Shown here in pieces: positions 4,558 through 62,835 of a DNA stretch of 64,000 bases (positions are counted from its first letter, which is position 1; every line of letters begins with the position of its first letter). This DNA comes from Hemileia vastatrix (Eukaryota; Basidiomycota; Pucciniomycetes; Pucciniales; Zaghouaniaceae): contig JASXTE010000015.1 in NCBI GenBank assembly GCA_030280995.1, positions 19,171,001 through 19,235,000 on the forward strand, written 5' to 3'. Under the pieces are notes generated by a model. The model made no database searches. It saw only the letters and a list, made by a program, of their open reading frames with translations, and was not told where the DNA came from. The position numbers were made by a program, and so were the translations under genes.

Positions 4558-4705
4558 ATGTCCAGTAGTTTGGAAAACAGCATGGATAATCTGTATGTGG
4601 ATGAAATTGAAGTGGATGTTGATAATGAATCTGTAGGTTCTTCAAAATTAACTTACAAGAATTCTTCAGCTGACAAACAACCTTCATACCCTTCAGGACG
4701 TAGAA

Positions 4706-5218
4706 ATGTCAGGAGAAGTGGCAAACCCCCCTCACCAAACTACTCTGAAAGAACTAAAACCTCAGATAAATCAGGAAAATCCTCTAAAGGGTATAAGAAG
4801 AAAAAAGATTCCTCTGAAACAACAAATAAACAACCTGTCCTCCCACATAAAAGAACTGAAGGCAGAAAGTATGAAATACAAGTCATGAATAGACACATTC
4901 TGGAAACAGATACAGGAGCTATTAAATCACAAGAATGTTCAACCTCCTCCTTTCCCAGCCTCTCAGTCTCAGCCTCAGCCTCAACCTCAGCCCCATCAGG
5001 CACCCAGCTCTTTCACTCAAAATCAAAGCACTCTGCCAGTGTAACAGTGGAAATGGGATTAACTGATGAAACATTACCTACAGAATGTTCAGCATCCAGA
5101 AGCTCAACACCCTGGCCCATCCAGGACACCAACCTACCATCCATCTCCTCAGGCCCATCCTTATCAGGGAGGCAGAAGAAAGAAGGCACAGGGGAAATTT
5201 CCTCCCTTACCATGGTAA
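4706..5218 (+). pseudogene. Element F ORF-B, overlapping gag in +1 frame, broken
   Basis: This is the F copy of the overlapping gene that is intact in A and B. ATG 4706 (MSGEVANPP) leads into a helical region (LKQQINNLSSHIKEL), a proline/glutamine-rich stretch, the QWKWD box, a PGPSRTP segment and a basic end (GGRRKKAQGKFPPLPW), then TAA 5216-5218. Three in-frame stops break it: TGA 4886-4888, TAA 5042-5044 and TAA 5060-5062. The last is Tyr to stop compared with E1 and E2. Similarity to E1 and E2 continues in the same frame across all three stops, so they are later decay rather than evidence against the frame. Confidence 0.65.
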
Positions 5219-5272
5219 GTAATTTGTTTGATAAACATGTTGGTGTGTATAATAACAAATCTTCTTCCACAG
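5215..5272 (+). other. Candidate 58-nt intron in element F
   Basis: GTAAGT starts at 5215 and the segment ends cttcttccacag at 5272, followed by GTAATATT. A taataac branch-like motif lies about 20 nt before the acceptor. Length and both ends match E1, A and B exactly (C has 52 nt). Removal leaves the ORF-B end as TGG-TAA but puts Gag into a short frame ending in TGA. Confidence 0.55.
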
Positions 5273-15697: not shown

Positions 15698-15755
15698 CTG
15701 CAGAAGAAGATTTATTAGAAAACATACCCAAGTGACTATCAACCAAATTACTTAC
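15698..15755 (-). other. Candidate 58-nt intron in element E1
   Basis: On the minus strand the segment begins GTAAGT at 15755 and ends cttcttctgcag at 15698, followed by GTAATATT. Length and end sequences match F, A and B. A ttctaataaatc branch-like segment precedes the pyrimidine tract. Confidence 0.6.
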
Positions 15756-16285
15756 CATGGCAGAGGAGGAAACTTCCCCTGGGACTGGGTTTGGGATTGT
15801 GCTTGGGCCTTCTTTCTTCTGCCTTGTTGGTAGGGATGAGGAGGTGGATGGAAATTGGGTGTTCTGGATGGGCCAGGCTGATGATGAGGAGGGTTTTGCA
15901 CATTCTGTTGGTAGTGACTCATTAGATAATCCCGTTTCCATTGCTCTACTTCCATAGTATTTGGATTTTGGATGGTTGAGCTGGGTGGCTGTGAAGGTTG
16001 AGCCTGAAACTGAGGCTGATTGGGAGGCAACTGAGGAGGGGCCTGGGCCTGAATCTGGTTCCTGAGTTCTTGGACCTGATCCCACAATCAGTCTACCTTT
16101 TCTTTGTACCTCATATTTTCTGTCTTCAACTCTTTTATATGACTGGATAGGTTGCTGATTTGTTGTGGCAGAGGAAGCTTTTTTATTTTGAAGCCTTTTG
16201 GAAGACCTTCTTGAGGCACTAGAGGATTTACTTCCTTCTGTGGTACTGGGGGAAGGGGGTTTGGTTTGTTTGCATTTCCTGTCAT
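15752..16285 (-). pseudogene. Element E1 ORF-B, overlapping gag, one stop
   Basis: ATG 16285 (MTGNANKPNPLPP) opens a +1 frame over gag of 177 codons. It contains a helical segment (QQISNLSSHIKELK), a Pro/Gln-rich region, VEQWKRDYLMSHYQQN, PGPSRTPNF, a basic tail (GRRKKAQAQSQ) and the end KFPPLPW with TAA 15752-15754. A single TGA at 16088-16090 interrupts it. The E2 copy has ARVEILWKQMQEL where E1 has EKVD-stop-LWDQVQEL, so the stop is a recent lesion. Confidence 0.7.
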
Positions 16286-16433
16286 TTCCACATCCTGCAG
16301 TATGTGAATTCTTTGTGTTAGCATAAGATTTTTTATGACCAACTTTAGAAGAACTTACAGTGTCAGCATCATAGTCAATTTCTATTTCATCCACTTGCAT
16401 GTTATCCATTTTTTCTGCCAAATTGTTGGACAT

Positions 16434-25858: not shown

Positions 25859-27359
25859 TGTCAGCCTGTATATCCCCAGGACTGAGTAAATACTACTTAT
25901 AAGTTATGTTAAACACATGAACTATACATGGGAATAATAATTAAGAGTACACAAACAGTATACATAAGTAAAATTATGATAATATACAAAATATGCCATT
26001 ATAACACCTTATATACACACATATATCCACCTTTTATAACTCTTATGTACTTAATATTAAGTTTTAATATGTTAGCTTAATCTTAAGAACCTTAAGTATA
26101 AGGCTACATAATTTTTAAGTACACTTAAAGCTGTTATTTTCACTGTTTTATGCAAAAAACAAGAAATGCACTTTATTTCACTTAAAAGTTGACTATATGC
26201 GCTATAAATTTGAGAATATTAAAAATGTGCTTTGACAGATCAATTTGTCTCATTTAGGACTATTGATTTGGCTATTTAAATGTATAAAAATAACACTTTT
26301 CAAATTTGGTGTTTTTTATGCCAGAAATGGCTTCTGTGTACTGGCCACATACTGCCTGCTTTTTTCCCGTGTGAATAGCTTCATTTTTAGCAAAGTTAGC
26401 TTTTTCACACTATAATTACCCCACATTCTACGCCCACTGTGGGGAAACACACTAAAATAGGTGACAGGCACTTATTTAGTGTCCTAGCTTAATTAATAAT
26501 GCATTGACCCTCTTTATATGCACTAATTTTATTAATAACCTCACTCTTGGCGCCTTATTTCACTACCACACTTAAATTCGCCTAAATTTAGTCAAGGATT
26601 TACCCGTGTAAGCGCCTGCCAAGGACTGCATATAGTTACCCCACATCTCACACTCCTTTTTGGGTTTTTGGGTGGTTTCTCAGTCAATATTGGGTATTTT
26701 TGAATGGGAATTTCATGTAGTATAATGCCAGGATTAGCCCCATTATTTCTACAGTGAATCTCCCTTATTATTAAGATATTATTAACCTTAATAATTTCCT
26801 CTTTAGTATTTTATATAATTGTTTAATACACATATACTCTCTTTTTATCTTATTCTTTAATTTTGATGGATTTTCCTTATTAATAGTGGATTTTGGCGGC
26901 TGCTACTCTTCTAATTATGTCATGGGATACTGGGAATGTTGATGGAAATGTCAATTAGTTGTTTGATGGCGTCATTAACTGTGTATTGGGTGGTATATCA
27001 AGGGAATCATTGGTGAACTCATTGTGTATAAAAGGAGGAGGGATTTTGGTTGTATTTCGACATTCTTTATCATTTACAATTTACCAATATAACCAAATAA
27101 ATTACAATACATATCAATTAGTACTTTTATAAGACTTTTGAATAGTATCTGAATTATAAAATCTATTTTTCTACCAACTACAAAGATTTTAAGCCATATA
27201 TAAAAATAGTGAGAATTATATTACTGAGACCTTTAATTTTGATTATATTTTACTACTTATTGGATTAGTACTACAGTATTCATATAGGACCATTAATACC
27301 TTCTAGACAACTGACCATTAAAGCTAGTTAACATCTTTGTACTTGACCTCAGCCTGACA
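25859..27359 (+). repeat. Element A 5' LTR (1501 bp)
   Basis: It begins TGTCAGCCTGTATATCC and ends CAGCCTGACA. TATAAAAGG lies at 27027-27035. A CCCCAC...GTGGGG inverted repeat (26419-26444) is conserved in all four A/B LTRs. The region 26330-26680 is unusually well conserved between A and B. Confidence 0.94.
27027..27035 (+). promoter_or_regulatory. Probable TATA box of A LTR
   Basis: gtgTATAAAAGGAGG is shared with B (45736-45744). Transcription probably starts about 30 nt downstream, which is inference. Confidence 0.55.
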
Positions 27360-28026
27360 ATTGGGGGCCTTTCCTCAAGAATTCTGTTATAATCCAGTAA
27401 GTAAAAATTTTAAAGAAGGTACGCGTAAATAAAATCCCTATAGAAATATTTGGATAATTACAACAGGTTGGGGTCACTTATATAGTGATTTCAGAGAAAG
27501 AAGCCCTGTTATATAAAGTTGTGATATTGAATCAACAATTTTACCACTAATTTAACATATAATTGTTATTAGTGGGTCTGTCAATAGACCAATTAAATTT
27601 GAGATCTTTGAAGATAAAATTTTTACCACTAATTTAACATAAAATTGTTCTTAGTGGGAGTCTGTCAATAGACAAATTAAATTTGTGATCTTTGCAGATG
27701 ATAACCAATTAAACTGATTAATTGTTTTCTTTTTACAGGGCTCTTAATCCCTTTTCTATTGGTTTGTAAAATTCATTTATATTTGAAAAAGAAATCTTAC
27801 TGACAGTTGTTTTCTTTTTAATATAAAAACATGGCTACATATTGTAGACCAGTTAAATCAAGTGACCACTTAAAAAGCATATTTGACTTTTGGCACTTAG
27901 AAATTCACTTAATACCAATAAGTAAGCAATAAAATTGTCCTCAGTGGTATTGATAAATACTGATAAAACTAATTTTGAAGTTTCCATTTATAAACTTTCA
28001 ATTCTTTAGAAAATTCCACCTAAAAA
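27360..28026 (+). other. Element A 5' leader with PBS block and duplicated hairpin
   Basis: The leader starts atTGGGGGCCTTTCC (27362). An 82-bp segment (27541-27622) is repeated in tandem (27623-27706). Each copy has an inverted repeat CCACTAA...TTAGTGG. B has only one copy (from about 46254). No coding sequence is seen. Confidence 0.7.
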
Positions 28027-28114
28027 ATGTGTGACAACAATGACATTGTAATTAATAAGGCAAAACCTTATAACTTAAGACCTAGAGCTGAAAGACCTGT
28101 TACAGGACATTCAA

Positions 28115-28564
28115 ATGGAGGGCCAGGACTCTCCCATAATAAACAACACTCCGCCAATGTCTCTGCAGGAAAGGGAAAAGCTTTTAAAGCAAGTTTCAAT
28201 AAAGAAAGCAAAAAATACATTACAAGAACAAATTCACTCCCTATCTACCTTATTGAACACATTGACAATAAGAGTCAACAATATAGTGGACCAGATCAAC
28301 AACCTGGAGAAAAGAGCAGCTCAAAGTTTCATAGAGGTCAACCAGGCTCTAGTGGACATAAAGGCTCAACCACAATCAGTGGCACCCACCAATTCCATAG
28401 CAACACCTCCAGTCCAAGAGGAGGATCAAAAAATCACTTTAAGAAAATGGAAATGGGATTGGTACACCCAAAATTACAACAATCCTCCACAGCAGGGCTC
28501 CAGCAGTCACCCTTACAGGGGAAAGGCAAGGAGAGGCAGGGGAAGTGGGATAAGAACTTGGTAA
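28115..28564 (+). CDS. Element A ORF-B: overlapping coiled-coil/RG-rich protein, 149 aa, intact
   Basis: It is read in the +1 frame over gag, from ATG 28115 to TAA 28562-28564. Residues 1-20 are polar (MEGQDSPIINNTPP). Residues about 21-85 form a likely coiled coil with Leu/Ile heptads (LQEQIHSLSTLLNTL, VDQINNLEKR). A Pro/Gln-rich linker follows, then RKWKWDWYTQNY at about 110-121 and a basic RG-rich tail (YRGKARRGRGSGIRTW). Against the B copy, 75 nt (28211-28285) have about 12 differences, of which 11 are silent here but mostly change Gag. I know no named family for it. A structural or nucleic-acid-binding accessory role is inference. The stop codon overlaps a GTAAGT splice donor. Confidence 0.78.
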   Translation: MEGQDSPIINNTPPMSLQEREKLLKQVSIKKAKNTLQEQIHSLSTLLNTLTIRVNNIVDQINNLEKRAAQSFIEVNQALVDIKAQPQSVAPTNSIATPPVQEEDQKITLRKWKWDWYTQNYNNPPQQGSSSHPYRGKARRGRGSGIRTW

Positions 28565-28618
28565 GTAACTTAACTCCTTATAATCAATTATATCAACCTG
28601 ACAATGAATTACTTATAG
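28561..28618 (+). other. Candidate 58-nt intron in element A
   Basis: GTAAGT starts at 28561 and the segment ends ttacttatag at 28618, followed by GTAATGAG. It begins one base before the ORF-B stop codon TAA. Splicing keeps the ORF-B end as TGG-TAA and sends the Gag frame to a stop about ten codons later. Confidence 0.6.
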
Positions 28619-31600
28619 GTAATGAGATGGATAAGGAAATATTGGATATGATTGATAATGATTTAAAGGATTATTCATTTGAAAAAAATATGTTAAACTT
28701 GTCTTTAAATGAGGACAATGTAAATATTTTTATTGATCACCAGGATAATGCTATTAATATAAAATTGGAATCAAATGATGAGTCTTCTGAGTTGTACACA
28801 GAAAAAATAGAATATTTTTTGAAAGAGAATCCAATGGAATCAAAAATAATAAGTAAATTATTATTGAGAATTGAAAAATCGGAAGAGTTCTCAAAAGAGT
28901 CAAACAATAATACAGAAAATGTATTATTACAGCTAACACAATCATTGAGTACAACAGCCAATAAATTAAAAATTATTGAAAATTCAAATGATGAATTAAT
29001 CAATGTGAATAAAAAATTGATTTCTGTGATTAGAAATTTAGAAAGTAAATTAGACCATACTCAGAATGTTATGGCAACCATTGAGGGACGTGTTAAATTC
29101 TCTTTTTCAAATGTAAATGATACTCTAACTCATTTACCTGTAATAAAGGATAGGTTACAAAGAGTAGAAATAGAAGTAGAAAACATATTGAAAGATACTG
29201 AAAAAATAAAAGATAACACTTTTTATGTGGCAAGAGTACCTGTTTTCATGAAACACGCAAATGAAACACCAATGATGGAACATGAAAATAGTGTCATGGG
29301 CTCTGAGAACAGTAAATCAGTAAAAGATGAAATAAATGATCATCTTTCCAAAGTAAGTGAATTACTGAATATTCCTCAGGTTAGGGAAGCAAGAAATAAC
29401 CAAAAGAACTGGCCTAAGTTAGATCAGTACCCTTCTTTTGACGGGGATTCAAAATCTGATTGGCAGCAATTCATACAAAGAATTGATAACTTAAAATTTT
29501 CATACAAATTACCTGATGAAGAAATTACTTCAAAGTTAATATCTTTATTTACAGATGTGGCCTTATTATGGTTTGAATCTGTATTTATTGAGGGAATTAA
29601 TTACTCCTGGAATGAATGGAAGGCACTAATTGAAAGGCAATTTGGTGGCCCAAAATTTAGAATCACTCAACAAAGATTGTATGAAAAGGCCAGATATAAT
29701 CCAAATGCTTGAGATAAACCTATGGTATTTTTAATGAATTTAATAAAAATCATGAAAGCCATGGATCCAAAAATGGATTATGAAGAGTGGAAAGAAATGA
29801 TAATATACAAGGTGCATATATCAGTTAGAGACATTATTGTAGCTAGAACTGAAGCCATCAGAGATACCTCTGGATTCATTAATATATGCAATGAGATATT
29901 ATTAAACCACAAGTATGAAACCAAGTATAACAATTACAGACAAAGTGTTGATGTGGTAAAACCTACTACAAGTAAATTGCCAGTGGAGAAGAAAAAACCT
30001 TCAGCTCCCCTTGTCACTAAGAGACAGGAGAATAACACTTGTTACAAATGTAATGAAACTTGGGTAAAGGGTCACATGTGTAAGAAAAGAATAAATGTTA
30101 TTGAAACCTCACAGAATTCTGAACCAAGTAATCATGAATATGAAAATGTAGAATCCAGTGAGGATTGAAAAATTAACATATCTTACAGTGATTATGAACA
30201 TGAGATATTTGTATTAGAACAGGATATTATGTTCCTGAATGATGCTATACCTCATAAAGACACATCTTTAACTTCCATTGAGGAAGCTGAAATAATCAAA
30301 GATGTAACTCATGATACTTACAAAATAACACCTATCAGAGCACCTGTTATTATATGTGGAAAAGAAATGAATGCCATTCTTTACACTGGGGCCGCAGGTA
30401 GTGTAGTTTCAATTAAGACATTAATGAAACTTGATAGTAAGTACCATGAAAAACTAGAAACTGTTCAAAAAAAGAACTGGAGAGGTTTTGGTTCAGTATT
30501 AAATACAATTGGCAAATACAAAACTGCTGTATTCTTTAAATATAATAATGGATATTTTAGAGCAGTATGTGAATTTGTAGTAATGGATAATAAAAATTGT
30601 AGTGATTGGTTTATTATTGGCAATGATTTATTGACAAAATTTGGCATTAAACTAGATCCTGCAAACAGTTGCTTCACTATAGGTGTGAATGGTAAGAGAA
30701 AATTTAAAATATGTTCTGAAAACTCAGTATATGCCATTTCTCCTAGAGAAGGACAACTACAAGGTGGAAGAACCACCACTGAAATGGTTGAATTGGATAA
30801 TGAAATCCAAAAGGCCTCTTTCAGTCCTCAACTCTCTAAAATTGAAGAAGAAAATATTTTGAGATTGATTAAATCATATCCTATGGCATTTTTTCATGGT
30901 TCAAATGAACTAGGATTGGTCAAAGAACATGAGTTGAAAATCTCTTTAAGTTGTGATTTGGATAATATTCCTGGCAGCTTGAAAAAGAAACCTTACCCAG
31001 CTTCTCCTGCAAAAAGGAAAGATATTGAAGACAACATAAAAATGTTGTTGGAAATGGGTATTGTTGAAAAAGTAGACACAACACCTAAGTATTGTGTTAT
31101 TTCACCAGTATTAATCTCTTATGAAAAAGATAAGGCAAGATTATGCGGTGATTATAGAGCTCTGAATACATACACTGTAGATGATATTTACCCTCTACCA
31201 AGGATAGCTTCTATCCATGCTACCTTACAAAGAGAAAAATACATTTCCTGTCTGGATGGAAACAAGGGTTACCACCAGATTCCTGTGGAAAAGAATTCTC
31301 AAAATTACTTATTAATAACCACACATATGGGTATATTTGAGTATGTGAGGATGCCATTTGGCCCAAAAAATGCACCTTCAGTCTTCCAAAAATTAATGGA
31401 TAGTGTTTTCCATCAGGAAATGGTTGAAGGATGGCTTTTGGCCTATATTGATGACATCATAATGTTTTCAAAAACATATGATGAACATTTAAATCACCTG
31501 GAAAGAGTCTTTCAAAAGATGGATGAAATTAATATGACAATTGCATTAAAGAAATGTAAGTTTGGATTTCAATCCTTGAAAGTACTTGGACATGTTGTAT

Positions 31601-34033
31601 CTGGATTACAAATTTGTGTTGACCAGAATAAGGTGGCAGAAATAAAAAACATTGGTATACCTAAAAATGTAAAAGAGGTTCAAATTTTTTTTGGTATGTG
31701 TGGATATTACAGACAGTACATTAAAAATTACCAATCCATTGCAGCTCCTTTAACAACATTAATCAGGAAAAATGAAGCTTTCATTTGGAATAATGAAAGA
31801 CAACATGCCTTTAATAAATTAAAGGAATGTTTAATGTCAGCTCCAATATTGGGACTGCCAGATTTATCCCTACCTTTTATCTTGTACACTGATGCAAGCT
31901 TCATAGGGTTAGGTGCTGCTTTACAGCAGAAACAGATAATAAATGGAAAATTATCTGAAGTAGTCATCTGTTATATATCAAGAACCTTAAGAAAAACAGA
32001 ATTAAGGTATGGTGCCACACAGCTAGAATATTTGGCTGTGGTGTGGGCTTTGGAGAAACTTCATTACTACCTGGAAGACCAGAAGTTTGAACTTATAACA
32101 GATTGCAGTGCAGTAAAATCATTACTAAACATGAAAACTCCTAATAGGCACATGTTTAGATGGCAACTAGCTATACAAGAGTACAGAGGAAGAATGAAAA
32201 TCACTCACAGAGCAGGAACATTGCATTCTAATGTGGATTTATTATCCAGAAGTCCTTTGCCAAATGATGCTGACAACCCAGCTTATGTGCCTGAAAATGA
32301 GGTTATACATATATTTGGGATTTATATAGTGGATTTAGAGGAAGAATTCATGCCAACTATATTGGAAAATTATTCATCTGATAAATATTTGACTAAACTA
32401 TCTACCATTCTAATTGATCCAACTAATGCCTCTATGAGTGCATTGATTAAAACCTTACCTTCAAAGTATAGAAATGCATTGGAAAAAGGTAAACTGTCAA
32501 TTGAAGATGGATATATATATTACAGGAAAAAGCTAAGTAATGTAATAGTAATACCACCTTCTATGAAAGAGTTAATGTTAAGTACTTGTCATGATGACAT
32601 CTTAGCTGGTCATTTTGATTTTAACAAAACATTAACTAGAGGTAAAAACACAGCCTGGTGGATAAACATGAAAGAAGATGTACAAAAATACATTGAAACA
32701 TGTGACTCTTGTCAGAAATCTAAAAGATTAACTGGGAAGAGAGCTGGGTTGTTACAACAAATAGAGCATCCAAAAGCTCCATGGGAAATAATAAACATGG
32801 ATTTGTAACTGGCTTTCCATTAGCAGGAAAAGTAAGTTTCACTTCTTGCTGGGTAATAGTAGATAGATTAACAAAAATGTGTAAATTTATCCCTACCCAT
32901 AAAGAGGTATCTGCAAAAGACTTGGCATTACTATGGTGGACTCAGATGATGAATTCTTCTGGGTTCCCTAAAGCCATAATCTCTGACAGAGACCCTAAAT
33001 TCTCTTCAGAGTTCTGGACATCTTTGATGGAAGTATCAGGTTGTCAATTGAAATTGTCTACAGCACACCATCCACAAACTGATGGGCTGGCTGAGAGAAT
33101 GATTCAAACTCTTGAAGACATGATAAGAAGATATTGTGCCTTTGGATTGGAATAAAAAGACAATGAGAAATTAACACATGACTGGGTAACATTAATTCCT
33201 GGCCTTGAATTTGCTTATAACAGCACAACTCATTCTGTAACAAAGAAGAAACCCTTTGAACTCTGGCTGGGATACATACCAAATACCCCAGGAAATCATT
33301 TAAATAAATTACCAAGGTTAGATATACACCCTGGCACTAAATCCTTCATTCATATGCAAAAAATGTGTAGAAAGAATGCAGAAAAATGCATTCAAAAAGC
33401 ATTTGAATATGAAAAGAAAAGGTGGGATAAATCTCATAAAGAATTTGAATTCAAAAAGGGAGATGAAGTCCTCATATCAACACTACATTTTAATTTACAA
33501 GGTAATGTTAAATTAAAGGATCCCTTTGTAGGACCTTTTGTAGTAAGAAAAATGGTTGGTAATAATGCAGTGGAAGTCATATTATATGCTCCATATGATA
33601 GGAAACATCCAGTTTTCCCTATCTCATTATTGAAACCTTACCATGCAAATGATCCTGACTTATTTCCAAAAAGAAGGGGAAGGCCTAAAAAGCAACCTGA
33701 AGAAATTGTGGAAAAAGCAGAGATTGAAAAAATACTCAAGAAAAGAATCCTTACTAAAGAAAAAGGAACTGAGTATTTACTAAGATTTAAAGGGAAATCA
33801 AATGAATTTGATAAATGGATACCTGAAAAAGAAATTTCTAATTTATCCACCCTTCTTAAAAAATTTAAACAGAAATAAATTTCTGTTCAACCAGCTGAGG
33901 GGTTAAAATACAAGTACTCATAATATTTTATTATGTTTTATTTCTTTAAAGTATAATCTTTAATGCTACAGAATAAATCTGAATACCTGAAAATTAAACA
34001 AATAATAAATAAAAATGTATAACTTATCATTTT

Positions 34034-34061: not shown

Positions 34062-35550
34062 TGTCAGCCTGTATATCCCCAGGACTGAGTAAAAACTACT
34101 TATAGGCTATGTTAAACACATGAACTATACATGGGAATAATAATTAAGAGTACACAAATAGTATACATAAGTAAAATTATGATAATATACAAAATATGCC
34201 ATTATAACACTTTTTATACACACATATATCCACCTTTTATAACTCTTATGTACTTAATATTAAGTTTTAATATGTTAGCGTAATTTTAAGAACCTTAAGT
34301 ATAAGGCTACATAATTTTTAAGTACACTTAAAGCTGTTATTTTCACTGTTTTATGCGAAAAACAAGAAATGCACTTCATTTCACTTAAACGTTGACTATA
34401 TGCGCTATAAATTTGAGAATATCAAAATTGCGCTTTGACAGATCAATTTGTCTCATTTAGGACTATTGATTTGGCTATTTAAATGTATAAAAATAACACT
34501 TTTCAAATTTGGTGTTTTTTATGCCAGAAATGGCTTCTGTGTACTGGCCACATACTGCCTGCTTTTTTCCCGTGTGAATAGCTTCATTTTTAGCAAAGTT
34601 AGCTTTTTCACACTATAATTACCCCACATTCTACGCCCACTGTGGGGAAACACACTAAAATAGGTGACAGGCACTTATTTAGTGTCCTAGCTTAATTAAT
34701 AATGCATTGACCCTCTTTATATGCACTAATTTTATTAATAACCTCACTCTTGGCGCCTTGTTTCATTACCACACTTAAATTCGCCTAAATTTAGTCAAGG
34801 ATTTACCCATGTAAGCGCCTGCCAAGGACTGCATATAGTTACCCCACATCTCACACTCCTTTTTGGGTTTTTGGGTGGTTTCTCAATCAATATTGGGTAT
34901 TTTTGAATGGGAATTTCACGTAGTATAATGTCAGGATTAGCCCCATTATTTCTACAGTGAATCTCCCTTATTATTAAGCTATTATTAACCTTAAAAATTT
35001 CCTCTTTAGTCTTTTATATCATTGTTTAATATGCATATACTCTCTTATTATCTTATTCTTTAATTTTGATGGATTTTACTTATTAATACTGGATTTTGGA
35101 GGCTGCTACTCCTCTAATTATGTCATGGGATACTGGGAATGTCTATTAGTTGTTCGGAGGTGTCATTAACTGTGTATTGGGTGGTATATCAAGGGAATCA
35201 TTGGTGAACTCATTGTGTATAAAAGGAGGAGGGATTTTGGTTGTATTTCGACATTCTTTATCATTTACAATTTACCAATATAACCAAATAAATTACAATT
35301 CATATCAATTAGTACTTTTATAAAACTTTTGAATAGTATCTGAATTATAAAATCTATTTTTCTACCGACTAAAAAGATTGTAAGCTATATATAAAAATAG
35401 TGAGAATTATATTACTGAGACCTTTAATTTTGATTATATTTTACTACTTATTGGATTAGTACTACAGTATTCATATAGGACCATTAAAATCTTCTATACA
35501 ACTGACCATTCAAGCTAGCTCACGTCTTTGTACTTGATCTCAGCCTGACA
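34062..35550 (+). repeat. Element A 3' LTR (1489 bp)
   Basis: TGTCAGCCTGTATATCC...CAGCCTGACA. It is 12 bp shorter than the 5' LTR (tgttgatggaaa missing near 35140). The CCCCAC...GTGGGG inverted repeat is at 34622-34647. Confidence 0.94.
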
Positions 35551-38500
35551 AAGTTTGAGGATAGTTTCTTTCATAGAAGGAGGGATTACAATTACATTAG
35601 TAAGCCTTCTTCTATAATAAATATGACCATCTTTAATAGAAAACTTTCCTTTCATCAAAGCACTTTGATATTTTGAAGGAAGATTTTTGGTTAATTCCTG
35701 AATTGAAGCATTCTTAGGATCATTTAAGATAGTAACTAATTTATTTAAATCAGAATCCTTATCATATGAATCCAGTATTTATTGTAATAACTCCTCTTCC
35801 ATATCAACTATAAATATACCATGGATATGAACAGTATCATCTTCAGGTACATAAGCAGGATTGGAGTCATTATTTGGCAGAGGCAGTCTGGACAGCATAT
35901 CAACATTGGAGTGAACATTTCCAGCCCTATTGATAATTGTCATCCGTCCTCTGTACTCTTGAACTGCAAGTTGCCACCTGAACATATGTCTATTAGGTGT
36001 TTTCAGGTTTAAGAGGGACTTAACAGCACTACAGTCAGTTACTAATTCAAACTTTTGGTCATCTAGATAGTAATGAAGTTTATCAAGAGCCCAAACAACT
36101 TCTAAGCACTCTAATTAGAGTGGCACCATCTTTCAATTCACTATTTCTCAAGGTTCTTGAAATATAACAAATTACAACCTCTGAGGATCTATTATTAATA
36201 ATTTGTTTCTGGTGGAGGGCAGCACCCAAACCAACAAAGCTAGCATCTGTATACAGGAAAAATGGTTTGTTAAAATCTAGAAGAGCTAAGATAGGAGCTG
36301 TCATTAAGCAAAAGTTTAAAGTATCAAAAGCTTTTTGAAAGTCACTATCCCAGATGAATGCAACATCTTTCCTAGTTAGTTTGGTAAGAGGTAAGGCTAT
36401 GACCTGATAAATTTTAATATATTGTCTGTAATAACCACACATACCTAAAAAACTTTCGATTTCTCTTACAGAAGTTGGTGCTTTCACATTTTGAATTGCA
36501 GCAACTTTGTTTTGGTCTACACAAATTTTTACGCCTGACACAACATGGCCAAGGACTTTCAAAGATTGAAAACCAAATTTACACTTTTTCAAGGACAAGG
36601 TCATATTTATTTCATCCATTTTTTGAAAAACTCTATTCAAGTGAACCATATGTTCATCAAAAGTTTTAGAAAAAATTATGATATCATCAATATACACCAT
36701 GAGCCATCCCTCAATTATTTCCTGATGGAAAGTGTTATCCATGACTTTCTGGAAAACTGAAGGGGCATTTTTAGGGCCAAATTGAATTTTTAACATACTT
36801 ATATATTCCCATATGAGTAGCGATAAGCAAAAAATTCTGAGAATTTCTCTCAACTGGAAATTGATGATACCCTTTGTTACCATCCAGACAACTAATAAAT
36901 TTTGCACCTTGCAAGGTAGCATGTATTGAATTAATTCTGGGTAAAGGATAAATATCATCAACAGTATAAAGGTTTAATGCTCTGTAATCTCCACATAATC
37001 TAGCCTTATCTTTTTCATAAGAAATCAAGACTTGGGAGATGAAACAATATTTGGGGGTGACATCCACTTTCTCAATGATATTCATTTTTAATAATGTGGT
37101 AATATTATCTTCAATATCCTTTCTTTGTGTTGGAGAAGCAGGATATGGTTTTTTCTTAAGACTAGGAGGAATATCACTCAAGTTACAGGATAACATAATT
37201 TTCATTTCTTCCTGAACACTTCCAAGACATGAGAACCATGAGCAAAAGCCATAGGGAATGAAGTAATTGAGGAAACAATAGAATCCTTTTTTTCACTAGT
37301 TAACTGATCACCAAAAGAAGAAGTATTTATTTCATTTAATAAATCATTCATCTAAATTTTTGGTCTGCCTTTACACTGGATCAGTGAGTTACAAGACTTT
37401 AACAGATGCCCAGAAGGTTTTCTAGGGGAGGAAATTTTGAATTTTCTTTTGCCATTCAATCCCAAGGTGAAGCAATTATTTGCTGGGTCCAATTTCACGC
37501 CAAACATAGTCAAAATATCATTACCCATAATAAAACAATTGCTTAAATTATCATTTTTCATGACAAAAAATTCACAAATAGCTCTGACAAAACCAGCATT
37601 ACATTTGTAGAATACAGAGGTTTTATATTTGCCAATAGGAATTAAGGTAGAACCATACCCTCTCCATTTTTCAGAAGTTATAGGTAATAATTTACTCAAA
37701 TAATCTTTATCTACTGAAGCTAAAGCTTTTTCAGACAATACACTTCCTCCAGCACCAGAATCAAGAACTACATCAACATTTTTACCATTAATGATAACAG
37801 GTGCCTTCAAAGGGGATATGGCTACAGAATTGTTAGTAATATCTTTAATTATCTCAGCATTTTCTACTGAAGATAAATTCAATACACATTCTTCAGATAT
37901 ATTATCTAAATAATGGACATCCTGTTCCAACATTAAAACATCTTTGACAGATTCATTGTCGTAGGAGATATTACTTTCACAGTCACTAGAAGAATTATTG
38001 ACATCAATTTCAGCCTCATTGGTGTCCTCATTGTGTTCAACAAGATTAATTTTCTTGTCACAAACATGACCCTTTTGCCATGGTTTGTTACATTTATAAC
38101 AAGTATTTGTTGCATATTTTTTAGGTGCAACTGGGGCAGAGGGTCTACCAGCTTTTTCTGGGGGCTTTGTAGAGGGTTTATTCTGATCATTTTAAGATTT
38201 ACCAAGGTAATTCTTAGGTTCATATCTATGGTTGAGTAGTACCTCATTAAATATATTAATGAAAGAAGAATGTTCCCTCACATGCTCAGTTCTAGCTGCA
38301 ATTAAATCTCTAAGAGAATTTGGCAATTAATACAAGATTTTATCTCTCCAAATATCATAATCCATCTTTGGATCAACTGCTCTTAGGATTTTTGTTACTT
38401 TCATAAGAAAAACAATGGGTTTTTCAACAGAGGAGGATACATATCTAGTATTCTCATACAGTCTTTGCTGAGCCGACCTGAATTTTGAACCACCAAATTG

Positions 38501-39361
38501 ATTCTCAATCAAGGATTTCCACTCATTCCATGTATAATGGTTATTATCTAATAGAACGGATTCATACCACATCAAGGCTGAATTGGAAAATAAAGAAATT
38601 AGCTTAGAAACAATTTCCTCATCAGTTAGTTTATAAGATTTCTTTAAATTATCAATCCTTTGTATAAAGTTTTGCCAATCAGATGAAGAATCACCATCAA
38701 AGGTAGGATATTGATCCAAATTAGGCCAATTTTTCTGGCTACTGGGGTTTTCTATCCTATGGTTTGAATTATTCAAGGTTATCAGTTCTTGAAGCCTTGA
38801 AAGGTGTTCAGATATTTCATTATTCACAGATGCAGCTGGTTGCTGAAAATTATGTTGGTAGTTGGTCATCAAGTAATCCCATTTCCATTGCTCCACTTGC
38901 AGAGTGCCTTGATTGTGGGTAAGGGAGCTGGGTTTTGATTGGGCTGAGGTTGAGGCTGAGGTTGGGAAGCTGGGAAATGAGGAGGTTGACCCTGTTTGGG
39001 ATTTAATAACTCCTGCATCTGCTTCCAGAGTATTTCTACCCTTGCCTTGTACTTCATGCTTTCTGCTCTCAGTTCCTTTATATGGCTTGACAGATTGTTT
39101 ACCTGCTGTGCTAGAGGAATCTTTTTTATTTTTATACTTCTGAGTGGATTGTCCTGATGTATTTGAGGTTTTACTTCTTTCAGAGTTGTTTGGTGAGGGG
39201 GGTTTGCCACTTCTCCTGACATTTCCACATCCTGAAGGTTTTTTGTCAGCTGAATAATTTTTGTAAGTTACTTTAGAAGAACCTAGAGATTCAGTGTCAA
39301 CATCCACTTCAATCTCATCCACATGTAAGTTATCCATGCTTTTAGCCAAACTACTGGACAT
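35551..39361 (-). pseudogene. gag-pol: Element E2 gag-pol, 5' portion (gag to RNase H)
   Basis: It starts at ATG 39361 (MSSSLAKSMDNLHVDEIEVD). An internal deletion removes the coiled-coil region, so the text runs from the QWKWDYLMTNYQ box of ORF-B straight into ASVNNEISEHL of Gag within one open frame. Capsid (DGDSSSDW), zinc knuckle CYKCNKPWQKGHVC-like (about 38100), protease LDSGAGGSVLS (about 37760), RT with YIDDIIIF (about 36690) and RNase H (YTDASFVGLGAAL) follow. Breaks include TAA 38327-38329, a stop near 38193, shifts near 37930, 37350 and 36780, and one near 36100. A interrupts it at 35550. Confidence 0.9.
38869..39228 (-). pseudogene. Element E2 ORF-B, shifted and truncated
   Basis: ATG 39228 (MEMSGEVANPPHQTTLKE) opens the +1 frame: helical segment (QQVNNLSSHIKELRAESMKYK), WKQMQELLNPKQ, Pro/Gln-rich stretch. 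A small indel near 38930 then moves the ORF-B text (LTHNQGTLQVEQWKWDYL) into the Gag frame. The C-terminal basic tail and the candidate intron are lost in the internal deletion. Confidence 0.6.
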
Positions 39362-44450: not shown

Positions 44451-44502
44451 CTATATTGTAATCATCAGTATTGTGTTCAATCTGAGAGGGTAATTGACTT
44501 AC
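44451..44502 (-). other. Candidate 52-nt intron in element C
   Basis: On the minus strand it begins GTAAGT at 44502 and ends gattacaatatag at 44451, followed by GTAATAAT. It is six bases (two codons) shorter than in A, B, E1 and F, yet has the same ends and the same position relative to ORF-B. Confidence 0.55.
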
Positions 44503-44564
44503 CATGGGATTTGTGCAAGCCCTGATTTTTGGCGCTTTTACTTTCCTTTGTAGGGGTGAGCTGA

Positions 44565-44569
44565 GGAAG
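44565..44569. repeat. Left TSD of element B (ggaag)
   Basis: ggaag is repeated exactly at 54209-54213. Confidence 0.94.
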
Positions 44570-46068
44570 TGTCAGCCTGTATATCTCCAGGACTGAGTAA
44601 AAAGTGATTATAAGTTATGTTAAACACATGAACTATACATGGGAATAATAAATAAGAGTACACAAATAGTATACATAAGTAAAATTATGATAATACACAA
44701 AAAATGCCATTATAATACCTTATATACACGCATATATCCACCTTTTATAGGTCTTATGTACTTAATATTAAGTTGGAATATGTTAGGGTAATCTTAAGAA
44801 CCTTAAGTATAAGGCTACATAATTTTTAAGTACACTTAAAGCTGTTATATTCATTGTTTTATGAAAAAAACAAGAAATGCGCTTTATTTCACTTAAAAGT
44901 TGACTATATGCGCTATAAAATTGAGAATATCAAAATTGCGCTTTGACAGATCAATTGGGCTCAATTAGAACTATTGATTTGGCTATTTAAATGCATAAAA
45001 ATAACACTTTTCAAATTTGGTGTTTTTTATGCCAGAAATGGCTTCTGTGTACTGGCCACATACTGCCTGCTTTTTTCCCGTGTGAATAGCTTCATTTTTA
45101 GCAAAGTTAGCTTTTTCACACTATAATTACCCCACATTCTACGCCCACTGTGGGGAAACACACTAAAATAGGCGACAGGTGCTTATTTAGTGTCCTAGCT
45201 TAATTAATAATGCATTGACCTTGTTTATATGCACTAATTTCATTAATAACCTCACTCTTGGCACTTTATTTCATCACCACGCTTAAATTCGCCTAATTTT
45301 AGTCAAGGATTTACCCATGAAAGCTCCTGCCAAGAACTGCATGTAGTTACCCCACATCTCACACTCTTTTTTGAGTTTTTGGGTGGTTTCTCAGTCAATT
45401 TCGGTTATTTTTGAATGGGAATTTCACGTAGTATAATGTCAGGATTAGCCCCATTATTTCTACAGTAAATCCCCCTTATTATTAAGCTATTATTAACATT
45501 AAAAGTCTCCTTTAGTCTTTAATATTATTGTTTTATACGCATATACTCTCTTTTTGTCTTTTTCTTTAATTTTGATGGATTTCCCTTATTATTATAGGAT
45601 TTTGGTGGTTGTTACTCTTCTAATTATGTCATGGGTTACTGGGAATGTTGATGGGCATGTCTATTAGTTGTTTAGAGGCGTCATTAACTGTTTATTTGGT
45701 GGTATATCAAGGGAATCATTGGGGAACTCAGTGTGTATAAAAGGAGGGGGTTTTTGGGTTGTATTTCTTCATTCTTTATCATTACAATTTAACCAATATA
45801 ACCAAATAAATTACAATACATATCAATTAGTACTTTTATAAGTCTTTTGAATAGTATCTGAATTAAATAATCTATTTTTCTACAAACTACAAAGATTGTA
45901 AGCCATATATAAGAATAGTGAGAATTATATTACTGAGACCTTTATATTTGATTATATTTTACAACTTAGTGGATTAAAACTACAGTATTCATATAGGACC
46001 ATTAAAATCTTCTAGAAAACTGACTATTCAAGCTAGTTCACGTCCTTGTACTTGACCTTAGCCTGACA
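44570..46068 (+). repeat. Element B 5' LTR (1499 bp)
   Basis: TGTCAGCCTGTATATCTCC...TTAGCCTGACA. TATAAAAGG is at 45736-45744. The inverted repeat CCCCAC...GTGGGG is at 45130-45155. Confidence 0.95.
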
Positions 46069-46654
46069 ATTGGGGACCTTTCCTCAAGAATTCTGTTATA
46101 ATCCTGTAAGTGAAATTTTCAAAAGAAGGTGCACGTAAATAATATCCCTATAGAAATATTTGGATAATTACAACAGGTTGGGGTCACTTATATAGTGATT
46201 TCAGAAAAAGAAGCCCTGTTATATAATAAAATTGTGATATTGAATCATCAATTTTACCACTAATTTAACATATAATTGTTCTTAGTGGGAGTCTGTCAAT
46301 AGACCAATTAAATTTGTGATCTTTGCAGATAATAACAAATTAAACTGATTAATTGTTTTCTTTTTACAGAACTCTTAATCCCTTTTTATTGGTTTGTAAA
46401 ATTCATTTAATATTTAGAAAGAATCTTACTAACAAATTTTCTTTTTTAAATATAAATACACGGCTACATATTGTAGACCAGTTAAATCAAGTGACCACAT
46501 AAAAAGCATATTTGACTTTTGGCACTTAAAGATTCACTTAATACCAATAAGTAAGCAATAAAATTGTCTTCAGTGGTATTAATAAATACTGATTAAACTC
46601 CTTTTTAAAGTTTTTTAAATCTAAACTTTCAATTCTCTGAAATTCCACGTAAAA
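46069..46654 (+). other. Element B 5' leader with PBS block
   Basis: It starts atTGGGGACCTTTCC (TGG at 46071). One copy of the CCACTAA...TTAGTGG hairpin segment lies near 46254-46335. There is no coding sequence. Confidence 0.7.
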
Positions 46655-46742
46655 ATGTGTGACAACAATGACATTGTAAGTAATAAGGCAAAAACTTATA
46701 ACTTAAGAACTAGAGCGGAAAGACCTGTTACAGGAAATCCAA

Positions 46743-47192
46743 ATGGAGGGTCAAGAATCAACAGTAACAATAAACAACACCCCACCAATGTCCATGGAGG
46801 AAAAGGAAAAGCTCTTAAAACAAATGTCAATAAAGAAGTCCAAAAACACATTACAAGAGCAAATTCACTCCCTCTCAACCCTACTGAATACACTAACAAT
46901 AAGAGTAAACAATATGTTAGACCAGATCAACAATCTGGAGAAAAGGGCGGCACAGGGCTTTATAGAAGTCAACCAGGCTCTAGTGGATATAAGGTCTCAT
47001 CAACAACCAGTGGCACCAAATACCACAGCAACACCTCCAGTCCCAGAAGAGGACCAAAAGATAACTGTAAGCAAAAGGAAGTGGGATTGGTATGCCCAAA
47101 ACTACAACAGTCCTCCTCAACAGGGATCCAGCAGTCACTCTTACAGGGGAAAGCCAAGGAGAGGCAGGGGAAATGGAATAAGACCGTGGTAA
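46743..47192 (+). CDS. Element B ORF-B: overlapping coiled-coil/RG-rich protein, 149 aa, intact
   Basis: The +1 frame over gag runs from ATG 46743 to TAA 47190-47192, the same length as in A. It is polar at the start (MEGQESTVTINNTPP), then a coiled coil (KNTLQEQIHSLSTLLNTL; LDQINNLEKRAAQGF), a Pro/Gln linker, KRKWDWYAQNYNSPPQQ, and a basic tail (YRGKPRRGRGNGIRPW). KNTLQEQIHSLSTLLNTLTI is identical in A, while the Gag residues over the same DNA differ at about ten places. The gag start is only 88 bases upstream, so leaky scanning from ATG 46655 could reach it; this is inference. Its stop lies in TGGTAAGT. Confidence 0.8.
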   Translation: MEGQESTVTINNTPPMSMEEKEKLLKQMSIKKSKNTLQEQIHSLSTLLNTLTIRVNNMLDQINNLEKRAAQGFIEVNQALVDIRSHQQPVAPNTTATPPVPEEDQKITVSKRKWDWYAQNYNSPPQQGSSSHSYRGKPRRGRGNGIRPW

Positions 47193-47246
47193 GTCATCCA
47201 TCTTCTCAAGATCAATTATATAATCCTAAAAATGAATTACTTATAG
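47189..47246 (+). other. Candidate 58-nt intron in element B
   Basis: GTAAGT starts at 47189 and the segment ends ttacttatag at 47246, followed by GTAATGAA. Splicing preserves the ORF-B end TGG-TAA and truncates Gag after about ten extra codons. Confidence 0.62.
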
Positions 47247-52689: not shown

Positions 52690-52709
52690 GTTTTTTTTGG
52701 GTGGGCGAG
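52690..52709 (+). promoter_or_regulatory. Element B polypurine tract
   Basis: gttttttttgggtgggcgag abuts the 3' LTR. 52529-52689 is 3' untranslated sequence shared with A. Confidence 0.72.
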
Positions 52710-54208
52710 TGTCAGCCTGTATATCTCCAGGACTGAGTAAAAAGTGATTATAAGTTATGTTAAACACATGAACTATACATGGGAATAATAAATAAGAGTA
52801 CACAAATAGTATACATAAGTAAAATTATGATAATACACAAAAAATGCCATTATAATACCTTATATACATGCATATATCCACCTTTTATAGGTCTTATGTA
52901 CTTAATATTAAGTTGTAATATGTTAGGGTAATCTTAAGAACCTTAAGTATAAGGCTACATAATTTTTAAGTACACTTAAAGCTGTTATATTCATTGTTTT
53001 ATGCAAAAAACAAGAAATGCGCTTTATTTCACTTAAAAGTTGACTATATGCGCTATAAAATTGAGAATATCAAAATTGCGCTTTGACAAATCGATTGGGC
53101 TCAATTAGAACTATTGATTTGACTATTTAAATGCATAAAAATAACACTTTTCAAATTTGGTGTTTTTTATGCCAGAAATGGCTTCTGTGTACTGGCCACA
53201 TACTGCCTGCTTTTTTCCCATGTGAATAGCTTCATTTTTAGCAAAGTTAGCTTTTTCACACTATAATTACCCCACATTCTACGCCCACTGTGGGGAAACA
53301 CACTAAAATAGGCGACAGGTGCTTATTTAGTGTCCTAGCTTAATTAATAATGCATTGACCTTGTTTATATGCACTAATTTCATTAATAACCTCACTCTTG
53401 GCACTTTATTTCATCACCACGCTTAAATTCGCCTAATTTTAGTCAAGGATTTACCCGTGCAAGTGCCTGCCAAGAACTGCATGTAGTTACCCCACATCTC
53501 ACGCTCATTTTTGAGTTTTTGGGTGGTTTCTCAGTCAATTTTGGTTATTTTTGAATGGGAATTTCACGTAGTATAATGTCAGGATTAGCCCCATTATTTC
53601 TACAGTAAATCCCCCTTATTATTTAGCTATTATTAACCTTAAAAGTCTCCTTTAGTCTTTAATATTATTGTTTTATACGCATATACTCTCTTTTTGTCTT
53701 TTTCTTTAATTTTGATGGATTTCCCTTATTATTATAGGATTTTGGCGGTTGTTACTCTTCTAATTATGTCATGGGTTACTGGGAATGTTGATGGGCATGT
53801 CTATTAGTTGTTTAGAGGCGTCATTAACTGTTTATTTGGTGGTATATCAAGGGAATCATTGGGAAACTCAGTGTGTATAAAAGGAGGGGGTTTTTGGGTT
53901 GTATTTCTTCATTCTTTATCATTACAATTTAACCAATATAACCAAATAAATTACAATACATATCAATTAGTACTTTTATAAGTCTTTTGAATAGTATCTG
54001 AATTAAATAATCTATTTTTCTACCAACTACAAAGATTGTAAGCCATATATAAGAATAGTGAGAATTATATTACTGAGACCTTTATATTTGATTATATTTT
54101 ACAACTTAGTGGATTAAAACTACAGTATTCATATAGGACCATTAAAATCTTCTAGACAACTGACTATTCAAGCTAGTTCACGTCCTTGTACTTGACCTTA
54201 GCCTGACA
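52710..54208 (+). repeat. Element B 3' LTR (1499 bp)
   Basis: It has the same length as the 5' LTR, with about 20 mismatches by eye. The inverted repeat CCCCAC...GTGGGG is at 53270-53295. Confidence 0.95.
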
Positions 54209-54598
54209 GGAAGTCTGATGAGGGGGAGGATTCCTGTTGCAATTGTGACTGGACCATTCCTGGTGGAACCAATCCCACTTCCATTTCTCTACCAAAATTT
54301 TTTCCTGGGAATGATGTGACTCTCCTTGGGTAGGGGATTGTTAGCTTGGCTTCCCTACCTTTAACTCCGCCAAAGTTTGATTCATCTGTTGGAAACCCAC
54401 CTTGCAGTTGTTTTGCAACTGCTCTACCTCCTTTAGCATGAAAGACTTTGATTCCTCCAGTTTCAGAACCTGCTTTTCCAGATGGTACAGTTGATCCTGC
54501 AGAGGAGGTGAAGCTTTTTTGATTGTTATCTTTTTTAAGAGGGTGTCCTTTTCCTCTATGCTCATTGACTCTGGTTGTGGATAGGATAGACCCTCCAT
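54209..54598 (-). pseudogene. Element C ORF-B, N-terminal portion, broken
   Basis: ATG 54598 (MEGLSYPQPESMSIEEKD) aligns with MEGQ of A and B. A helical region follows (LQDQLYHLEKQVLKLEE), then VGKPS and TAA 54341-54343. The same frame then continues with VEKWKWDWFHQEW, the WKWD box, so the TAA is a lesion. The tail lies beyond the B insertion, at 44569-44500, ending at the candidate intron. Confidence 0.6.
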
Positions 54599-54683
54599 GG
54601 TGATGTCCTGGAGCAATGTTTTTAGCTTTAGACCTGGTGTTATAAGCAGGTTTTTCACTTACATTGTCCTGTGGAGAACTCAT
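54209..54683 (-). pseudogene. gag-pol: Element C gag, N-terminal portion
   Basis: ATG 54683 (MSSPQDNVSEKPAYNTRSKAK) aligns with the A and B starts (YNLRPR motif); an earlier in-frame ATG is at 54701. The frame stays open to the B insertion at 54209 (EVGLVPPGMVQSQ, then DF). It continues at 44569 after removing B. Confidence 0.85.
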
Positions 54684-61295: not shown

Positions 61296-62835
61296 GATGC
61301 ATTTGGCAAACAAGATTAAGCTATACCATAATATCATTAATACTATAATGGTAAGGAAATTTCCATTAAATTTTCATTATGAAAAGAGAAAAAATATCCC
61401 ATACACATAAGATAAATATCACATAATCTTTATTATTAAATAGAAAGTGTCATCCAATGTGCATGTAGCATATATGAGATTATGATCTATTGATAATATT
61501 AATCATTTTTTTGATGCCAAAATCCATTAAATTATTATGATTAAAAAGATTTCATTCTTCTGTATGTGTTTGACATACAAGATTGAGCTTTATCTCATCA
61601 TAAATAATTTAATGCATAGAAGAATACCAATACATAATGATTATCAAAAACATTGCAATAACCCATAAGCATATAGAAAATTCCAGAATAAAATTATCTA
61701 AGCATAATGAAAATTTATTGAACCTCCAAATATCCTTTACTTATTATGATATAAAGTATAGCATCCTGCAGGATGCATTTAACACACGAGATTAAGCTAT
61801 ACCATAATATCAATAATACTATAATGGTAAGGAAAAATCCATTAAATTTTCATTATGAAAAGAAAAAAATCATCCCATACACATAAGATAAATATCAAAT
61901 AATCTTAATTATTAAAAAGAAAGTGTCACCCAATGTGCATGTAGCATATATGATATTATGCTCTATTGATAATATTAATCATGTTTTTGATGCCCAAATT
62001 TATTAATTTTTTTATTAGTTGAAAATATTGTATCCTTCTGTATGTGTTTGACATACAAGATTAAGCTTTATCTCAATCATAAAAAATATAATGCAAAGAA
62101 GAACACCAATCTGTAATGATTATTAAAAACATTGCAATAACCCATAAGCATATAGAAAATGCCAGAATAAAATTATCTAAGCATAATGAAAATTTATTGA
62201 ACCTCCAAATATCCATTAATTATTATGATTTAAAGTATAGCATCCTGCTGGATGCATTTGGCACACAAGATTAAGCTATACCATAATATCAGTAATACTA
62301 TAATGGTAAGGAAAAATCCATTAAATTTTCATTATGAAAAGAAAAAAATTATCCCATACACATAAGATAATTATCACATCATCTTTATTATTAAAGAGAA
62401 AGTGTCACCCAATGTGAATGTAGCATATATGAGATCATGCTCTATAGATAATATTAATCATGTTTTTGATGCCAAAATTCATTAAATTTTTTATTAGTTA
62501 AAAATATTGCATCCTTCTGTATGTGTTTGACATACAAGATTGAGCTCTATCTCAATCATAAATAATGTAATGTAAAGAGGAGCACCAATAAACAATTATT
62601 ATTAAAATATTGCAATAATAATAAGTATATAGAAAATTCCAGAATAAAATTATGTAAGCATAATGAAAATTGATTGAACCTCCAAATATCCATTAATTAT
62701 TATGATATGAGCTATAGCATCCTGCCAGATGCATTTGGCACACAAGATTAAGCTATACCATAGTATCAGTAATACTATAATGGTAAGGAAAAATACATTA
62801 AATTCTCATTATGAAAAGAAAAAATTATCCCTTAA
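61296..62835. repeat. About 478-bp tandem repeat, 3.2 copies
   Basis: Units starting gatgcattt begin at 61296, 61772, 62251 and 62728 (spacing 476, 479, 477). Copies are highly similar and the last is truncated after about 108 bp. Within a unit, a segment about 267 bp after the start (tatgtgtttgacatacaagattgagct) resembles the unit start (gatgcatttggcacacaagattaagct), so the unit may itself be an old dimer. No coding frame is conserved. Confidence 0.9.

Follow-up and report, generated by a model that had tools for sequence, protein, structure and literature searches.

Does a long open reading frame that overlaps the start of a retrotransposon gag gene encode a protein of its own and, if so, how is that protein made from the RNA of the element? 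The question is raised by a stretch of 64,000 nucleotides from Hemileia vastatrix (GenBank assembly GCA_030280995.1, contig JASXTE010000015.1, positions 19,171,001 to 19,235,000), referred to here as the window, in which two long terminal repeat (LTR) retrotransposons, elements A and B, each carry a +1 frame over the N-terminus of gag. We call this frame ORF-B. A homologue occupies the same place in gag in four further elements of the window, C, D, E and F; that of C was found with tblastn (E 3e-15), those of D, E and F by examining reading frames. In our view, ORF-B very probably belongs to a conserved gag-overlapping gene that is expressed by splicing from the gag AUG, and we would word this more strongly still but for a discount made for intron 1 of A and B, where the case is weaker. 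Three lines of observation back the gene, namely coding selection, splice signals shared between the elements and genomic copies with spliced junctions, the last found by searching the 747.6 Mb assembly that contains the window; it is carried by families of very high copy number. The reading frames in A and B are as follows.

28027..29712, + strand: gag ORF of element A, translated from unspliced RNA
28115..28564, + strand: ORF-B of element A, 149 codons and stop, +1 frame of gag 28027-29712; predicted long helix, WKWDW helix and basic tail
46655-47461, + strand: gag ORF of element B
46743-47192, + strand: ORF-B of element B, 149 codons, +1 frame of gag 46655-47461

An earlier reading of the window, made from the sequence only, had described this 149-codon frame in A and B, and our coordinates (28115-28564 and 46743-47192) confirm it. 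The length is particular to A and B; ORF-B in C mostly has 151-153 codons and in E mostly 177 (177 residues in seven of nine other analysed copies). Within the overlap the ORF-B proteins of A and B share 81% identity (120 of 148 aligned residues) and the Gag frames 62% (92 of 149); the comparable part of Gag downstream of the overlap shares 88% (265 of 300). For the 75 nt at 28211-28285, compared with 46842-46916, the sequence-only reading had reported 12 substitutions, eleven of them silent in ORF-B. We count 11 rather than 12; they touch ten ORF-B codons and change one residue (Ile to Met). In the Gag frame the same substitutions touch 11 codons and change 11 residues, where about ten had been proposed.

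The overlap did not arise by chance, and both frames are kept open. We fixed the protein of one frame and redrew its synonymous codons 4000 times for six ORF-B rows (A_L020 was dropped). When ORF-B was fixed and codons followed pol/gag usage, 10-13 Gag-frame stops were expected and 0 of 4000 draws were open; with the codon usage of ORF-B itself, about 5-6 stops were expected and P(open) was 0.001-0.004. When Gag was fixed, ORF-B stayed open in a fraction of 0.005 (A) and 0.0003 (C2) of draws and in 0 of 4000 for B. It is because redrawn codons so rarely leave the other frame open, and because the third frame of the six rows has 11-15 stops, that we regard both frames as maintained.

Selection in the two overlapping frames, for which the sequence-only reading had proposed an overlapping-gene method, was estimated with a pairwise count after OLGenie, in which each possible or observed change is assigned to a class according to what it does in each of the two frames, with changes to stops excluded, kappa set at 2 and a bootstrap over 6-column blocks. 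Because the copies are not independent of one another and dead ones contribute neutral changes, the intervals given in parentheses serve as guides. Between A and B (30 A copies against 4 of 30 B copies) the ORF-B ratio dNN/dNS is 0.184 (0.11-0.28) and the Gag ratio dNN/dSN in the overlap is 0.91 (0.49-1.71). The corresponding values are 0.195 (0.13-0.28) and 1.06 between C1 and C2 (20 copies), and 0.515 (0.35-0.74) and 1.13 between E and D, so that ORF-B is low in all three comparisons; within C2 and within C1 its ratio is 0.137 and 0.42, respectively. Since all five Gag-frame intervals in the overlap include 1, the Gag residues there drift, nearly unconstrained, in a frame that is nonetheless held open. 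ORF-B is the constrained protein of the overlap and is under strong purifying selection.

The claim that ORF-B is under stronger selection than gag thus holds for the overlap, but not for gag as a whole, as Gag is conserved downstream with ratios of 0.40-0.51. For A-B these are 0.51 (0.29-1.02) directly downstream and 0.45 (0.31-0.70) further on, for C1-C2 0.47 and for E-D 0.40. The +1 frame past the overlap, taken as a control in A-B, gives 0.80 directly downstream and 0.98 further on. When the +2 frame is used instead as the second frame of the overlap, ratios of 1.8-2.6 result, in line with a constrained ORF-B, and comparisons among the A copies yield about 1 in either frame, as expected for old dead copies. 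Overlapping genes of this kind are easy to overlook in LTR elements when annotation ends at gag-pol.

The sequence-only reading took ORF-B for a separate internal ORF. It is instead an exon, as genomic copies of C and E that have lost the upstream intron join the gag AUG to it in frame. The exons and introns assigned in the six elements are listed below, with a slash at the splice sites.

28027..28047, + strand: element A exon 1, 7 codons from the gag AUG (MCDNNDI), common to Gag and the predicted spliced ORF-B protein
28048..28105, + strand: element A predicted intron 1, 58 nt, 3' end CAG; donor here GTAATT
28106..28560, + strand: element A exon 2, ORF-B coding (ATG 28115), +1 frame of gag
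28561..28618, + strand: element A intron 2, 58 nt, TG/GTAAGT...TATAG/GTAATG
46655..46675, + strand: element B exon 1
46676..46733, + strand: element B predicted intron 1, 58 nt, GTAAGT..CAG
46734..47188, + strand: element B exon 2 (ORF-B 46743-47192)
47189..47246, + strand: element B intron 2, 58 nt
16359..16433, - strand: element E exon 1, 25 codons from the gag AUG
16295..16358, - strand: element E intron 1, 64 nt, GTAAGT..CAG
15756..16294, - strand: element E exon 2, ORF-B ATG 16285; TGA in the window copy
15698..15755, - strand: element E intron 2, 58 nt
54663..54683, - strand: element C exon 1 (MSSPQDN)
54608..54662, - strand: element C intron 1, 55 nt
54206..54607, - strand: element C ORF-B exon 2, 5' part, 31-33% identity to A/B, interrupted by the insertion of B
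44451..44502, - strand: element C predicted intron 2, 52 nt, across the insertion of B
4558..5272, + strand: element D, decayed, assigned by likeness to E only; exon 1 4558-4632, intron 1 4633-4696 (donor GTAGGT), exon 2 4697-5214 with stops in ORF-B, intron 2 5215-5272
38977..39361, - strand: element F, decayed and frameshifted; gag start 39361, ORF-B homologue with ATG at about 39222

Donor 1 is GTAAGT in 26 of 30 A, 29 of 30 B, 18 of 20 C and 9 of 10 analysed E copies (the E count leaves out an eleventh copy, L088, which has no start motif), GTAGGT in the D copy and CTAGGT in F. The acceptor, CAG/GA, lies 9 nt 5' of the ORF-B ATG in all six elements. Intron 1 measures 58 nt in A and B, 55 nt in 15 C copies, 58 in two and 54 in one, and 64 nt in D and E; apart from the single 54 nt case these lengths are all 1 mod 3, which means that its removal brings the gag AUG and ORF-B into one frame. 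Past the acceptor the ORF-B frame reads D-I-x-M or D-V-x-M; this holds for A, C, D, E and F and, in B, for 26 of 30 copies. The conserved part of ORF-B starts at the acceptor, 9 nt before its 'start' codon. Donor 2, GTAAGT, falls at the ORF-B stop (TG/GTAAGT), and AG/GTAAT follows 58 nt (A, B, D and E) or 52 nt (C) further on. Because GTAA stands both at this donor and right after the acceptor, ORF-B ends in Trp-stop (W-stop) whether intron 2 is removed or not, and its removal throws Gag out of frame.

The arrangement that these signals suggest is one in which a single start codon serves two proteins. Unspliced RNA would give the full Gag frame from the gag AUG, and removal of intron 1 (55-64 nt) just past that AUG would carry translation into the +1 frame and yield exon 1 joined to the ORF-B protein. 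Intron 2 (52 or 58 nt), beginning at the ORF-B stop, would also be spliced, with Gag left out of frame. We also considered a longer intron 2 that would link ORF-B to downstream Gag; no acceptor of the needed length (2 mod 3) common to A/B, C and E was found within 300 nt in five copies, and A and B have one common 2 mod 3 acceptor, at 167 nt.

Spliced RNAs, if made, could be copied back, so intron-less genomic copies are expected. The intron 1 junction of E has 17 genomic matches (12 exact, three with one and two with two mismatches) and that of C has eight (one exact, five with one and two with two mismatches); the reversed controls gave none in either case. Sixteen of the 17 E places were examined. 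By BLAST, intron 2 is also gone in eight and kept in eight, and seven of the eight copies that lack it match the exact junction motif; an unbroken ORF of 205 residues runs from the gag AUG to the W-stop in eight of the 16, one of 199 residues in one more, and the frame is broken in seven. At the four of eight C places examined the join was present every time, with a 163-residue ORF in two; intron 2 was kept in all, and no C copy without it was seen among these four.

The A/B intron 2 junction has five matches (four exact, one with one mismatch; reversed control zero). In these five copies intron 2 is gone, intron 1 and the leader align through, and the donor 1 motif is intact in four; the nearest is 97.6-98.2% like B and the rest are 82-92% over the longest match. 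Any deletion of 43-73 nt over the A/B intron 2 interval was also scanned for with exact anchors (present in 49 of 60 loci), which misses most old copies; one copy was returned, with the predicted junction. We infer that the intron-less copies arose from spliced RNA. Such copies offer a cheap route to the spliced RNAs of elements in genomes without RNA data.

Within E, L098 and L106 differ by 0.47% and 0.58% from unspliced copies, compared with 0.77% from the nearest other spliced copy, and for L108-L111 the nearest unspliced copy examined is 6-8% away; on these distances there were several intron-loss events. Four other spliced-type copies, L096, L097, L099 and L101, are 0.3-0.5% apart and may stem from one event. 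These four are possibly a sub-lineage that is spreading, via other copies, while unable to make Gag.

A donor in the leader, near 27397, had been a candidate for intron 1 and was dropped, as the donor after the gag AUG fits better and is seen in spliced-type copies. Independently of this, a GTAAGT about 36 nt 3' of the 5' LTR and a pyrimidine-rich TTTTTACAG beyond it resemble a leader intron (27397 and 27738 in A; 46106 and 46369 in B); the leader is retained in the five intron-2-less A/B copies. The leader of A also has about 82 nt extra at 27539-27642, by eye a tandem copy, which B does not have.

The predicted spliced product has 163 residues in C and 205 in E, and 159 were computed for A/B. 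An alignment of 17 sequences from A, B, C and E contains 21 invariant positions, among them Leu24, Lys26, Ile30-Lys32, four heptad-spaced leucines, Trp112, Lys113 and Asp115 of the KWKWD motif, Pro133-Tyr134 and the final Trp. From the alignment, the heptad run in B comprises Leu37, Ile41, Leu44, Leu48, Leu51, Val55, Met58, Ile62 and Leu65. The AlphaFold2 monomer of the B protein, built with the 17 sequences (mean pLDDT 66, pTM 0.31), has a long helix at 37-86, mostly with pLDDT above 90, a helix at 103-121 that includes the WKWD box and a short helix at 18-28; the ends are of low confidence and the tail is disordered. The last 27 residues of ORF-B in A (123-149) contain six Lys/Arg and no Asp/Glu. 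The coiled coil, WKWD box and tail of the sequence-only reading are therefore recovered as a heptad run within a long predicted helix, the box itself and a basic tail. Searches of a protein database at E 0.001 gave no relative of the A ORF-B or of the 17-member alignment, nor of residues 420-800 of the E Gag.

The ORF-B protein would probably bind the RNA of the element or Gag. Acting as a factor like Rev or CERV, it might cause intron-containing RNA to be exported or kept unspliced, and so provide a switch from early ORF-B to late Gag-Pol. By analogy such a regulator of unspliced RNA is the likeliest function, although we propose it tentatively. More speculative still is the wider suggestion that this chromodomain LTR group runs a Rev-like two-stage programme, in which the retained mini-introns would be the switch, ORF-B would bind unspliced RNA and the whole would have arisen by overprinting in gag, independently of Cer1 and of lentiviruses.

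The Rev protein of human immunodeficiency virus 1, Rex of human T-lymphotropic virus and Rem of mouse mammary tumour virus are small, oligomerising proteins with a basic segment that are made from spliced RNA and overlap other genes. Likened by description, ORF-B would share with them expression from spliced RNA, small size, a basic segment and the gene overlap. The sequence-only reading knew of no named Ty3/Gypsy accessory protein like ORF-B, but CERV, of the Caenorhabditis elegans Ty3/Gypsy element Cer1, is of the same general kind and is the nearest described case. CERV is made from a spliced mRNA whose first exons are in the gag frame and one exon in another frame; it is a nuclear protein needed for export of unspliced RNA, has a helical segment with a potential leucine zipper, and has no homologues beyond its lineage (PMC10309623). 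By that description the two systems have in common the Ty3/Gypsy background, a spliced mRNA with the Gag start, an exon outside the gag frame and the use of unspliced RNA for Gag; they differ in that ORF-B is much smaller (159-205 residues) and lies wholly within the gag region, and in that the export role is shown for CERV and conjectural for ORF-B (PMC10309623). BARE1 has a 104 nt retained intron whose removal shifts the frame, splicing deciding the product; this intron is comparable to intron 2 of ORF-B, but splicing in BARE1 yields Gag alone and no new protein (PMC3735527). Among the titles and abstract openings listed by our paper searches, none describes a gene of a chromodomain element that is spliced and overlaps gag.

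If the proposal is true, this group of LTR retrotransposons would have a regulatory circuit in the style of the complex retroviruses. The gene also offers a natural setting in which to test how intron-containing genomic RNA and spliced mRNA are kept in balance by an LTR element, and whether control of the Rev/CERV type has arisen repeatedly.

A structural role, in which the spliced protein would be a virion-associated or nucleic-acid-binding partner of Gag, is possible but rather unlikely. A long helix and basic tail suit such a partner as well as they suit a regulator, and in the virion-associated protein (VAP) of caulimoviruses a coiled coil precedes a basic tail that binds nucleic acids. 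VAP has its own ORF and is not spliced from the Gag start; the likeness to ORF-B, again by description, is in the coiled coil and tail. Manufacture from a spliced RNA that cannot give Gag is better suited to an early regulator, and Gag seems to have a zinc-knuckle-like motif of its own (CYKC...GHTC, by eye).

We think it improbable that the protein limits the element by hindering Gag assembly at high copy number. The precedent is p22 of Ty1, an alternative product that inhibits assembly (PMC4599808), and ORF-B is indeed kept by several high-copy, partly near-identical families. However, p22 is part of Gag, whereas ORF-B has only its first residues in common with Gag, and the strongest conservation in the region would be unexpected for an inhibitor.

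Several observations weigh against a spliced, regulatory ORF-B. The selection signal is weaker in the comparisons among D, E and F (0.38-0.52), where E-F gives 0.375 and D-F 0.44, D and F being single decayed copies. For A-B, the 87 nt that precede the ORF-B ATG give a Gag ratio of 4.5 (1.5-36), a value based on very few silent changes, and the shared exon 1 has no measurable Gag-frame constraint. The intron 1 junction of A/B had no genomic match at up to two mismatches, so that splicing of this intron in A/B is a prediction from the shared signals and from C and E. The spliced-type counts are numbers of copies rather than frequencies, and the evidence for splicing and for the protein is genomic. 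The Pfam and PDB profile matches of ORF-B are of a generic coiled-coil kind, the best being bZIP_1 (E 3.7e-05, in three of 17 members), with a designed coiled coil at E 0.0017; the bZIP match means that a DNA-binding role may yet apply. The export role is something we infer by analogy.

ORF-B stops also occur in 17 of 30 old A copies; 13 of 30 have a Gag-frame stop within the overlap. The sequence-only reading had treated stops in ORF-B of young copies with intact gag-pol as evidence against the gene. Two A copies, L002 and L030, do have ORF-B stops and yet no stop across the 1.7 kb of gag compared, and in the window copy of E a TGA interrupts ORF-B and gag is open. The A copies with ORF-B stops are not counted as young because A copies are old and mutually neutral, and among the best 150 E matches, ranked by ORF-B score, 145 have no ORF-B stop, four have TAG and one, the window copy, has TGA.

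It is also unlikely that leaky scanning on unspliced RNA reaches the ATG of ORF-B itself (28115), with splicing incidental. Position +4 of this ATG is a G in A, B and C, and position -3 is occupied by C in A/B, by A in C and by G in D-F; 26 of 30 A copies retain the ATG, as do 30 of 30 B copies, the latter chosen by ORF-B score. Against leaky scanning stand the D-[I/V]-x residues before the ATG, which are conserved up to the acceptor, and the intron-1-less copies in two families that join the gag AUG in frame. That the intron-less copies are ordinary deletions is very improbable: GGTAA stands at both ends of intron 2, where slippage could give an identical junction, and old copies bear other indels (L016, for example, lacks 48 columns across 1.1 kb of gag), but the ends of intron 1 repeat no more than one G and its GT-AG removal is nevertheless found at the 17 E and eight C places, both introns are absent together in half of the E copies examined, and the only copy from the deletion scan has the predicted junction. 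Splicing from the gag AUG remains our preferred account.

The remaining features concern the elements themselves. Elements A and B have LTRs of about 1.5 kb each, and those of E share 97.5% identity over 1138 nt; none were found for C, D and F with the stretches tried.

25859-27360 / 34062-35551: LTRs of element A, 95.9% identical
44568-46068 / 52708-54208: LTRs of element B, 98.7% identical
30229-32808: element A pol domains RVT_1, RT_RNaseH and Integrase_H2C2, in Ty3/Gypsy order
33354-33878: element A chromodomain PF00385, after integrase, E 2.3e-08, above cut-off

An rve match in A at 32781-33155 (E 1.5e-05) is under its cut-off. Elements A/B, C and D/E/F are a Ty3/Gypsy group in one genome, with the chromodomain shown in A, the element that the chromodomain scan covered. 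The window copy of B has one extra base that breaks gag (46655-47461 and 47415-49448); 27 of 29 other B copies differ from it by that single base, and L033 and L050 by more deleted columns. Element B (44568-54208) sits reversed within the ORF-B exon of C (54206-54607 / 44451-44567).

Families B, C and E are abundant, and the best 150 ORF-B matches of each were taken from 13,768, 8,835 and 17,073 first-look candidates, respectively; the lists are ranked by ORF-B score, hence biased, and may overlap in kind. Evenly spaced ORF-B matches (7663, 8141 and 8003 bases) point to whole elements arrayed head to tail, at G000:C84 956072-979315, G000:C2 35490804-35515673 and G000:C26 1807224-1815757. Elsewhere in the window, 57919-59124 on the minus strand is pol, more distant in sequence (27.6% to A), of another element group, and 61296-62852 consists of direct repeats with a spacing of about 477 nt that are 72-94% alike.
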